A stretch of 33,337 bases of DNA from a virus. The DNA is taken from the IMG/VR virus record IMGVR_UViG_3300046011_005926, positions 1 through 33,337 of that record. One strand, given 5' to 3'. Below, in pieces: positions 23,324 through 28,023 of this stretch (position 1 is its first letter; each line of letters opens with the position of its first letter). The notes under the pieces were generated by a model. That model was not told the DNA's origin. It ran no database searches and saw nothing but the letters and a program-made list of their open reading frames with translations. A program made the translations under genes and the position numbers.

Positions 23324-24049
23324 ATGCCATTACCAGAATATACTGTTCCACAATATGATTTGACTCTTCCATCAAATAAAAAGAAGATCAAATATAGACC
23401 ATTCCTTGTTAAGGAAGAAAAGGTTTTAATCATTGCATTAGAATCTAGAAATCCAAAACAAATTACTGACGCAATTAAACAAGTATTGTCTAATTGTATT
23501 CTCACTAAAGGAATTAAAATTGAAGAACTTCCTTCGTTTGATATTGAATACTTGTTTTTAAATATTCGTGCTAAATCTATTGGCGAGTCTATTGAACTTG
23601 TAATCACTTGTGGTGATGATGGTGAAACAGAAGTTCCAGTTACATTATTTGTAGATGAAATTCAAGTTCAATATCTAGAGGGACATACCAATAAAATTGA
23701 TATGGAAAATGGATATCATTGGCAAATGAAATATCCATCTTTAAATCAATTTATTGAAAACAACTTTGATGTTTCAGAAAAGTCTTCAGAGAATGTAGAA
23801 CGATCTGTAAAACTTATTGCATCATGTATGGAAAGCGTTTATAATGAAGAAGATTGTTGGATGGCTTCTGACTGTACTGAAAAAGAACTGATTGATTATG
23901 TTGAGAAGTTAACTCCCAAGCAATATAAAAAAATTGAACAGTTCTTTAAAACAATGCCTAAGTTGAGTCATACATTACAAGTAGTCAATCCTAACACTGG
24001 AAAAGAGAATAGTATCGTTCTGGAGGGTTTAACTGATTTTTTCGGCTAG
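23324..24049 (+). CDS. gp26: Baseplate hub/assembly protein gp26 (chaperone-like)
   Basis: A 241-aa protein (T4 gp26 is 208 aa). LTLPSNKKKIKYRPFLVKEEK (first 20 of ~13-33) and ITDAIKQVLSNCILTKGIK are typical of the T4_baseplate family. EYLFLNIRAKSIGE follows. In T4, gp26 acts in hub assembly, and its family has been compared with tail assembly chaperones. The last codons contain a slippery T-TTT-TTC (24037-24043) before the TAG, giving a route to a longer product with the gp51-like frame. Late promoter overlapping the gp54 stop. Confidence 0.87.
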   Translation: MPLPEYTVPQYDLTLPSNKKKIKYRPFLVKEEKVLIIALESRNPKQITDAIKQVLSNCILTKGIKIEELPSFDIEYLFLNIRAKSIGESIELVITCGDDGETEVPVTLFVDEIQVQYLEGHTNKIDMENGYHWQMKYPSLNQFIENNFDVSEKSSENVERSVKLIASCMESVYNEEDCWMASDCTEKELIDYVEKLTPKQYKKIEQFFKTMPKLSHTLQVVNPNTGKENSIVLEGLTDFFG

Positions 24050-24057
24050 CCCTAGCC
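24037..24057 (+). promoter_or_regulatory. Predicted -1 frameshift site with adjacent hairpin
   Basis: Zero-frame codons GAT TTT TTC form the canonical X-XXY-YYZ heptamer T-TTT-TTC (24037-24043). Directly after it, GGCTA (24044-24048) pairs with TAGCC (24053-24057), loop GCCC, enclosing the zero-frame TAG. The spacer is shorter than usual for a stimulatory hairpin. Confidence 0.65.
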
Positions 24058-24222
24058 AAAGAAGATCTTGAAACATATTTCAGGATCAACTTTGCGCTAA
24101 TGCAAGTTCATAAGTATTCTCTTACTGAAATAGAAAATATGATTCCTTGGGAAAGAGAAACCTATCTTGAACTTCTAAAACAATACATAGAAGAAAAGGA
24201 AGCAGAAAAACAAAATGGATGA
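24043..24222 (+). CDS. gp51: gp51-like C-terminal extension in the -1 frame
   Basis: The -1 frame entered at CGG 24043 gives 59 residues: RLALAKEDLETYFRINF, then HKYSLTEIENMIPWERETYL, ending AEKQNG. It is open from a stop just upstream of the slippery site to TGA 24220-24222. It has no ATG, GTG or TTG before ATG 24100, which would drop the first third and has no ribosome site. The expected fusion is 299 aa (240 + 59). The IPWERE-x-YL motif is typical of gp51/chaperone extensions in T4-like phages. The last 8 nt overlap the next start. Confidence 0.65.
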   Translation, partial: RLALAKEDLETYFRINFALMQVHKYSLTEIENMIPWERETYLELLKQYIEEKEAEKQNG

Positions 24223-25543
24223 AGAATCCCCAAAGGCTATAGACGCAAGTAAGTTTTTTGGTGCTGGAGAAGCAGTAATTGAAGGTGCTGCATCTCCAGC
24301 TGCAAGTGTGCAAAGAACACGAGCTGTCTATTCTGGTGGAGATGATTTATCTAGACTTCTTAGAATTATTAAAACTGAAATAGATATAAATGATGAGGAA
24401 GATCAATTAAAAGAAGATCCAGAAAAGATAAGATTGCAATCATTAGTTGATGGATTAACTGGTAGAGTTGATTTATTAACTTCACAACTCTCAGGATTAT
24501 TTTCTCTAATACTTGGTGATATAAAAGGTAGAAATATTGAAGCAAGACAATCAGTAAAAGAAGAACAACAAAGAAGCTCTGAGATTTCTAAAGCTACTAA
24601 ATTGCAAGCATTGCAAGCAACAACACAAGACATAATTAAAGCAGCTGAAGAAAGAGGGCAGCAACGTCAAGCTGAAATGGAACAAGAGCGTCAAATGGGT
24701 ACGCTAATTTCGGCTTTGGGTTTTGGTGTTGGAATATCTGGAATGATGCGGGGGAAAGATGAAGAAGATTTAAATCAATTTATTGGTGGAGAGCCTATTT
24801 CTAATCCAGTACGAGCCCAAGAAATATATCATTATTTAATTTCAAAAGGCATTAGTCATACACATGCAGTTGGAATATTAAACAACATTGAACATGAATC
24901 TGGATTTGATTCTGGTGCAATGGGAGATTATGAAAATGGAAAACCTAATTCTTTTGGATTGTTTCAATTTAATTTGGGTGGTGGACGTGCTCAAACAATG
25001 TTTAAATCTGTAGGCACAGATTGGGCAAAAGATTGGAAAGGTCAGGTTGATTATGCACTGTCTGAGCCAGCGATGAAAACATATTTGAAAAAATCTTTTG
25101 CAACACCAGCAGATGCATCAAAGGATTTTACAATAAATTTTGAAAACCCTGCAAACAAAGAAGAAAAATCATTAGAAAGATTAAACACAATTAATACGTT
25201 TGATAAATTTAAGGATCTTGGTAATCAATCAAGCAAAATGAAAGGCAGAGGGGCAACAGGTGATCCACCACAAGTAGCACAAATATCTTCCCCAGGAACT
25301 ATGATTAGTGTTCAGCAAGAAAAATTAAATGCTCAAGTTTTAGCACAAGAAACTGGTGGCAAAGCCATGTCACCACAAATAGCATTATTAAATGCTCCAA
25401 CTAAATCACCAACAATTCCTGAAGGAACTGGGGGAGCACCAACAACATCTCATGCATCTGCTCCTATTCTTCCAGCAACAAATCCTAAAGATCCTTATCC
25501 AATTGCAACAGCAATCAATCTCAATGCTGTTAAGCAAGCGTAG
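24215..25543 (+). CDS. Tail protein with coiled coil and lysozyme-like domain
   Basis: A 442-aa protein. Residues ~45-160 are helical with heptads (LVDGLTGRVDLLTSQLSGL; long Gln/Glu-rich helix ~105-160). A short hydrophobic segment (GTLISALGFGVGISGMM, ~162-178) follows, then a domain at ~200-330 that resembles Phage_lysozyme2: AQEIYHYLISKG, GILNNIEHESGF with the likely catalytic Glu at 226 or 228, and NSFGLFQFN. A Pro/Thr-rich tail ends it. It probably opens peptidoglycan during entry, taking over the role that T4 gp5 lysozyme plays. The coiled coil could also serve as a tape-measure element. Confidence 0.7.
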   Translation: MDEESPKAIDASKFFGAGEAVIEGAASPAASVQRTRAVYSGGDDLSRLLRIIKTEIDINDEEDQLKEDPEKIRLQSLVDGLTGRVDLLTSQLSGLFSLILGDIKGRNIEARQSVKEEQQRSSEISKATKLQALQATTQDIIKAAEERGQQRQAEMEQERQMGTLISALGFGVGISGMMRGKDEEDLNQFIGGEPISNPVRAQEIYHYLISKGISHTHAVGILNNIEHESGFDSGAMGDYENGKPNSFGLFQFNLGGGRAQTMFKSVGTDWAKDWKGQVDYALSEPAMKTYLKKSFATPADASKDFTINFENPANKEEKSLERLNTINTFDKFKDLGNQSSKMKGRGATGDPPQVAQISSPGTMISVQQEKLNAQVLAQETGGKAMSPQIALLNAPTKSPTIPEGTGGAPTTSHASAPILPATNPKDPYPIATAINLNAVKQA

Positions 25544-25545
25544 AT

Positions 25546-26529
25546 ATGGCAAAAATAACTGCGGAAACCATTAGTAAAGATATTGATATTGTAAAAGATA
25601 GAGTACAAGATATCACTGTCTTTATTGATAAAACAAAGTATGATTATATTAAAACATCTAAACTAATTAAAAGTAATTTATCTTTATTAAAACAATTAAA
25701 AAAACGTTCTCATGAACTTGAAAAGGAATTGCAAAGAACAAATCAAATACAAAAAACTGATCTTGAAAGAATAGATGAAAGGAGACAACAGGAAGAAAAA
25801 CAAAAGGCAGAAATTGCTCAAGAAACAAGTTTTAATAAAGAAATTCTCCAGACATTTTTGGGAACTGGTGTTGCCTCAATGGTTATTAGTGAAGAGATAC
25901 AGGAGCAGCAAGAAACTAAACCAGACGGTTCAAATGGAAGATTAAAACCAGATCAATTAAGAGATGTAGGTGATGGGTTTAAACTATGGGCTCCAGCAGC
26001 AGAATCTTACTTGCAAATGAAAGCTGCCGCCGCCAGAAATAAAGTATATTTTAAATTGTCAAGTGCTTATAGAACTTATGAAGAACAGGCAAAGTTAGAG
26101 GAAGAACTTGGAACATGGAGTCCAACAAATCCAGGAGCTGCACCACCAGGAACTTCTGCACATGGTTGGGGAATTGCAATTGATATTAGTTCACCAGGAG
26201 CACAACAATGGATCCGAAGATATGGTGGTCAGTATGGTTGGTATTCAACAGTATCAAATGAACCTTGGCATTTTGAATGGAAAGGAAGTGCAATTAATAC
26301 ACCTCAAAGTAAAGTTGAACCAGTAACTAAAAAAACTAATAATCAAAACAACAATCTTGTTTCATATAATACGAAAGAAGAACCTGAATCTTTATTACTA
26401 GCATTAGTTGCTCCACCAGATAATCCTAGTGTTTCACCACCAGTAAAGCAAAATGAACCCACGACACCTCCAAATCTGTCACTAAATAAGATTACGGCTA
26501 ATCCTTTCTTCATCACCCCCACTGGTTAA
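25546..26529 (+). CDS. Tail protein with coiled coil and M15 (VanY-like) peptidase domain
   Basis: A 327-aa protein. Residues ~5-95 are a coiled coil (KQLKKRSHELEKELQRTNQI). Residues ~135-250 form an M15 D,D-carboxypeptidase-like domain: SSAYRT (172-177), SAHGWGIAIDI (204-214, zinc ligands H206 and D213) and EPWHFEW (239-245, zinc ligand H242 with nearby Glu). A Pro-rich tail ends it. It probably cuts peptide cross-links of peptidoglycan during injection. Architecture parallels the previous gene (helices, enzyme, Pro-rich tail), and its stop overlaps gp27 (TAATG). Confidence 0.8.
   Translation: MAKITAETISKDIDIVKDRVQDITVFIDKTKYDYIKTSKLIKSNLSLLKQLKKRSHELEKELQRTNQIQKTDLERIDERRQQEEKQKAEIAQETSFNKEILQTFLGTGVASMVISEEIQEQQETKPDGSNGRLKPDQLRDVGDGFKLWAPAAESYLQMKAAAARNKVYFKLSSAYRTYEEQAKLEEELGTWSPTNPGAAPPGTSAHGWGIAIDISSPGAQQWIRRYGGQYGWYSTVSNEPWHFEWKGSAINTPQSKVEPVTKKTNNQNNNLVSYNTKEEPESLLLALVAPPDNPSVSPPVKQNEPTTPPNLSLNKITANPFFITPTG
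26482..26488 (+). promoter_or_regulatory. Possible internal late promoter before gp27
   Basis: CTAAATA inside the end of the M15 gene, 40 nt before the gp27 ATG. Position is suitable, but it is in coding sequence and may be chance. Confidence 0.35.
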
Positions 26530-27810: not shown

Positions 27811-28023
27811 ATGGAAAACATTCAACAACATATCCAAAAGGATAAAGAAATTTTAAGTGATCCCACAGTTTCCCCACAAATGCGCCGCCATATTGAGGGT
27901 GAATTAGAAGATCTTCAAAAATATCATGAGCGTCATCCTGAAGATGATCATGATCCAACCCCATTAGAATTATTTTGTGACGCTAATCCTAATGCTTTAG
28001 AGTGTAAAGTATACGAAGACTAA
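27811..28023 (+). CDS. cp12: CP12, Calvin-cycle inhibitor
   Basis: A 70-aa protein whose C-terminus TPLELFCDANPNALECKVYED (first 20 shown to E69) matches the CP12 signature: Cys56 and Cys65 in C-x8-C, ending in the YED-type tail that inserts in GAPDH. CP12 clamps GAPDH and phosphoribulokinase into an inactive complex when oxidised. Phage copies are thought to turn off carbon fixation so that NADPH serves nucleotide synthesis. The N-terminal Cys pair is absent, as in many marine picocyanobacterial forms. It lies between gp27 and gp5 with a 1-nt gap and a 1-nt overlap, hence is probably late-expressed. Confidence 0.85.
   Translation: MENIQQHIQKDKEILSDPTVSPQMRRHIEGELEDLQKYHERHPEDDHDPTPLELFCDANPNALECKVYED

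Follow-up and report, generated by a model that had tools for sequence, protein, structure and literature searches.

The gp26-like gene examined here stops at the point where a second, gp51-like reading frame opens in the -1 register, which raises the question of how that second frame is translated. The window is the whole stretch of DNA that was analysed (33,337 nucleotides, positions 1 to 33,337 of IMG/VR virus record IMGVR_UViG_3300046011_005926). Most likely, a -1 slip lets this cyanobacterial virus produce a tail-assembly helper protein in two versions from one gene. The argument involves the following features of the window.

23324-24049, plus strand: gp26-like ORF of 241 aa (short form, TAC-N equivalent), matching PF12322 T4_baseplate (E=4e-70) and phrog_150 baseplate hub (E=7e-74)
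24022-24026, plus strand: Shine-Dalgarno (SD)-like GGAGG (GGAGGG at 24022-24027), 10 nt 5' of the heptamer
24037-24043, plus strand: slippery heptamer T TTT TTC in the X XXY YYZ register
24043-24222, plus strand: -1 frame of 59 codons plus stop, the C-terminal domain of a predicted 299-aa gp26-51 fusion, matching phrog_634 (E=1e-24) and matched in phage records by tblastn
24047-24049, plus strand: 0-frame stop TAG, one codon past the heptamer
24049-24103, plus strand: predicted RNA stem-loop, its outer pairs 5 nt and its main stem 9 nt past the heptamer
24215-25543, plus strand: downstream ORF of 442 aa (tail lysozyme / tape-measure-like), matching Phage_lysozyme2 (E=2e-17) and the tape measure phrog_9570 (E=5e-14)

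The 3' end of gp26 reads CTG GAG GGT TTA ACT GAT TTT TTC GGC TAG. An earlier note on this DNA had recognized a slippery heptamer in GAT TTT TTC GGC TAG, and had claimed that slipping opens a 59-codon frame with an IPWERE motif and that this frame has no start codon before ATG 24100; all of this holds. The -1 frame is open over 24043-24219, ends at TGA (24220-24222) and contains MIPWERE. It has no ATG, GTG or TTG 5' of ATG 24100, and the sole near-cognate start there is ATC 24085; ATG 24100 itself sits within the conserved domain of the frame and within the predicted stem. The frame matches phrog_634, a baseplate hub assembly catalyst, as well as the end of phrog_150. The window is AT-rich, and TTTTTTC by itself is about as frequent in it as expected (21 matches vs 20.3), so one genome on its own proves little. 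If at most one mismatch is allowed, the combination GGAGG-N10-TTTTTTC is present once where 0.25 occurrences would be expected, and it was found in 22 of 100 shuffles, which alone is not significant. Because the heptamer word is common in the window, statistical weight was placed on conservation across relatives.

Two viral-contig scans and phage records yielded 172 loci in which gp26 ends in a poly-T site at the expected place, and grouping these at 90% nucleotide identity gave 82 clusters, mostly cyanophage-like. Since loci were selected by their poly-T ending, the fair denominator is the full set of 189 gp26/gp51 ORFs found, from which T4-type gp51 genes, three Ackermannviridae-type junctions, S-CRM01 and L099 were left out. 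All 82 clusters keep the heptamer in the same codon register, gp26 ending in NNT TTT TTC (80 clusters) or NNT TTT TTT (2), followed by one codon and then the stop, and in all 82 the -1 frame is conserved and open for 55-66 codons. Synonymous constraint at the junction is strong: relative to pooled gp26 codon usage, the third-base T leading into the heptamer occurs in 82 of 82 clusters (51 expected), TTT in 82 (56 expected) and TTC in 80 (26 expected). The earlier note had suggested aligning the junction in relatives for both the heptamer and the lack of a gp51 start; the former is invariant, but the latter is not constant. Starts in the gp51 frame vary, with ATG at -1 codon 3 in 45 of the 82 clusters and no start before codon 16 in about 25, the window included. 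A tblastn search with the -1 frame matched 546 phage records, mostly from Synechococcus phages and also from Vibrio, Sinorhizobium, Pelagibacter and other phages; among the matches listed, alignments begin at residue 1 or 2, which is the slip site. The same heptamer occurs in ValKK3, PX29, Mendera, ACP17 and PhiW-14, and the T6T form occurs in pf16. A GTDB genome scan found no relative, and a plasmid search gave no match.

Variant junctions were also observed. The stop follows the heptamer directly, with zero codons between, in S-CRM01 (L094, 2197-2205) and S-N03 (L195, 1147-1156). A Mendera-like contig (L099, about 2238-2262) has T5 rather than T6 at the slip site, which takes gp26 into the +1 frame by sequencing error or mutation. 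The Ackermannviridae-type junctions L090, L091 and L081 have GTT TTT or NTT TTC in place of the heptamer, which fits the U_UUN tetramer class, and two of these three have TAATG overlaps. The Ackermannviridae examples K355 and SD25 have a TAATG overlap together with the weaker sites CTT TTC and GTT TTT (U_UUN class), so coupling could matter there.

The SD-like element has the same 10-nt spacing in 41 of 82 clusters; this exact form is thus present in only half of them, which counts against the frameshift model. Codon choice around it is biased: its Glu codon is GAG in 54 of 68 cases (19 expected), and the preceding Leu codon is xTG in 47 of 63 (19 expected). Anti-SD pairing energy reaches its deepest mean minimum, -7.7 kcal/mol, at the position of this element.

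Downstream RNA structure is specific to the junction. The stem-loop of the window has z=-5.3 against dinucleotide shuffles, and it folds better than every one of 200 synonymous recodings. When the 69 nt that directly follow the slip are compared with synonymous recodings in the 82 clusters, the mean z is -2.6 and 63% of values lie below -2; thirteen other segments within gp26 that served as controls have mean z values of -0.1 to -0.7 and 4-13% below -2. The helices differ from clade to clade. In the largest clade (clade A, 52 sequences), 88% of cells pair and nine double-sided changes occur vs 1.7 expected from shuffles, for example U-A to G-C with a Glu to Ala change in the protein; these covariation counts are modest, come from related sequences and are less well supported in a second clade of 12 sequences. 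Some sliding controls show double-sided changes too, and therefore the paired fraction was weighed jointly with the covariation score and with the specificity of location. The stem is not universal: it is weak or missing in some relatives, among them the nearest isolate, DSL-LC03, in which no strong stem forms downstream (-6.9 kcal/mol).

A smaller hairpin at 24044-24057, which the earlier note had placed directly downstream of the heptamer, exists as sequence (GGCTA-GCCC-TAGCC) but was rejected as a stimulator. It leaves no spacer, lies outside the minimum-energy fold and is not conserved, being broken in L016 and DSL-LC03; its bases are used by the larger stem at 24049-24103.

The best explanation of the junction, and one that we consider very probable from comparative sequence evidence, is that gp26, in T4-type phages, is a tail/baseplate-hub assembly chaperone made in two lengths by an SD- and stem-aided -1 slip at U UUU UUC. 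The programmed -1 frameshift from gp26 into the gp51-like frame that was originally predicted is supported by the heptamer, its register and the open frame in 82 of 82 clusters, by the synonymous constraint and by the junction-specific RNA structure. Most ribosomes would terminate at TAG 24047 and release the 241-aa short form. A fraction would pause and slip by -1 on U UUU UUC (24037-24043), aided by pairing of GGAGG with the 3' end of 16S rRNA and by the downstream stem-loop, and would read on to TGA 24220 to give a long form of 299 aa (240 aa from gp26 plus 59 aa). We infer the slippage in infected cells, its efficiency and the assistance that the SD-like element and stem would give. When assayed in E. 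coli, U_UUU_UUC falls in the most efficient -1 motif class, H_HH.U_UU.Y (PMC4066793).

An improbable alternative is that gp51 is a separate small protein, translated from its own start codon in the -1 frame or by stop-start reinitiation after gp26. A separate gp51 with an ATG is annotated in P-SSM2 and S-PM2, several relatives (e.g., ValKK3, Mendera, S-CRM01 and PhiW-14) have TAATG or TGATG overlaps, and the codon 3 ATG of 45 clusters could in principle start such a protein. However, separate initiation fails for the window and many clusters because they have no ATG, GTG or TTG until the middle of the conserved domain. Even where the codon 3 ATG is present, it lies inside the stem in most of clade A, and the SD-like element is too far away to serve it because it lies about 24 nt upstream. 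A separate gp51 also leaves the invariance of TTT TTC and of the NNT codon unexplained, while conserved residues begin immediately past the heptamer, T4 gp51 is fused, and the -1 frame is unannotated in the records of ACG-2014h, S-CAM1, S-CAM4 and DSL-LC03. No joined gp26-51 CDS is annotated in any of the 20 phage stretches examined; the frameshift-type records among them leave the -1 frame blank or give it as a separate 'gp51' gene. It is very unlikely that RNA polymerase, rather than the ribosome, changes frame by slipping on the T run. There is a homopolymer at the junction, but it consists of six Ts, closed by C in 80 of 82 clusters and never preceded by another T, whereas the runs on which polymerase is described as slipping in bacteria are about 9 long (PMC5009743), and such slippage would require no codon register, SD-like element or stem. 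That gp26 and gp51 were once one gene whose frame was broken by mutation or sequencing error, as the T5 of contig L099 might suggest, is scarcely credible and already contradicted by an identical break in 82 clusters of isolates and environmental contigs.

Ribosomal slippage into the -1 frame would yield a protein that has a counterpart in T4. In T4 gp51 (249 aa), residues 1-201 form a complete PF12322 domain and the region after it matches phrog_634, which is why the -1 frame matches the end of phrog_150, and T4 gp26 (208 aa) has the PF12322 domain only. In an alignment read by eye, T4 gp51 runs on past the shared FF/VF position, colinear with the window's FFRLALAKEDLETYFRINFALMQVHKYSLTEIENMIPWERE. 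Judged by domain content and alignment, T4 gp51 is a natural form of the fusion predicted from -1 slippage here, with T4 gp26 as the short form, so gp26 and gp26-51 would be a short/long tail-assembly-chaperone pair. As in a T4-like chaperone pair, the short form carries PF12322 and the long form adds the gp51 C-terminal domain. The label 'gp51-like' given to the -1 frame fits its phrog_634 match, but the cyanophage 'gp51' is only the C-terminal part of T4 gp51. Likewise, T4 does encode 26 and 51 separately, as the earlier note stated, but its gp51 is itself a fusion of a gp26 domain and a gp51 tail. T4 thus differs from the window in obtaining the two forms from two genes on opposite strands rather than from one locus by predicted -1 slippage. 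T4 gp51 is needed for tail assembly and is absent from virions (PMC3004832), and a chaperone role of the gp26 forms would follow by analogy with T4 gp26/gp51 and lambda G/GT. In one contig (L108, 2001-2363), a T4-type gp51 is interrupted after about 120 aa, with the remainder in another frame.

AlphaFold2 gave confident models, with mean pLDDT values of 86.0 for the T4-type gp51 of L100 and 85.5 for the window gp26. A Foldseek search of the PDB with the short-form model gave no match at E <= 0.001; a weak match to the HK97 chaperone fold (2ob9_B, probability 0.57, E 1.6), alongside 3fgx_A (TMt 0.54, E 5.2), is suggestive only. The fold search of the PDB with the long-form model gave no credible match, and a PDB sequence search gave nothing credible. 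In a tree, gp26, gp51 and frameshift-type proteins form three separate groups; the tree is unrooted and therefore does not give the direction of duplication. A fuller scenario is possible, although we advance it tentatively: the signal would be a three-part, dnaX-like one, its stems rebuilt independently in different clades, that serves to keep the short:long ratio nearer parity than in lambda, and T4 would later have fixed both products as two diverged genes after duplication.

Downstream of the junction, the ATG of the ORF at 24215-25543 overlaps the end of the -1 frame; its matches to tape-measure PHROGs are partial and the ORF has only 442 aa. This Phage_lysozyme2 ORF and a VanY peptidase gene at 25546-26529, both with cell-wall domains, separate the chaperone gene from the tail gene that comes next (phrog_350). 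A short gene with a CP12 domain lies at 27811-28023; CP12 is a host-metabolism gene that is frequent in cyanophages.

The locus offers a clean way to test why both gp26 and gp51 are required in T4. It also provides a large natural series of SD, heptamer and stem combinations that could be used to measure frameshift efficiency in cyanobacteria. The roles of gp26 and gp51 as tail assembly chaperones of T4-like phages, with poly-T slip sites, are already published, as cited through PMC10885494 and PMC12846349 (Vladimirov, Gautam & Davidson 2022, Virology 566:9-15), so the link between T4-type hub assembly genes and chaperone frameshifting drawn in the earlier note holds but is not new. No description of an SD-like element or stem at the gp26-gp51 junction was found in the literature searched, in which few subscription papers are represented. 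The detail added here is a three-part, apparently dnaX-like signal.

E. coli dnaX resembles the window in having an upstream SD-like sequence, spaced by about 10 nt, an X XXY YYZ heptamer and a downstream stem-loop. It differs in its heptamer (A AAA AAG vs U UUU UUC in the window), in being a different gene and in that its slipped product is the shorter one. The heptamer of lambda G/GT is G GGA AAG, unlike that of the window, which also has the SD-like and stem-loop elements; we know of no sequence similarity between the lambda G/GT and window proteins. The likeness to lambda lies in a short and a long form with a common N-terminus and in a -1 slip shortly before the first ORF ends (PMC5009743). 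The TAC locus of Vandenendeviridae and Andersonviridae (Pseudomonas phage Adele) has a conserved poly-T -1 site where the short chaperone ORF ends and a -1 frame that is unannotated or misannotated, as in the relatives of the window, but it uses a GTTTTT motif and belongs to other phage families (PMC12846349).
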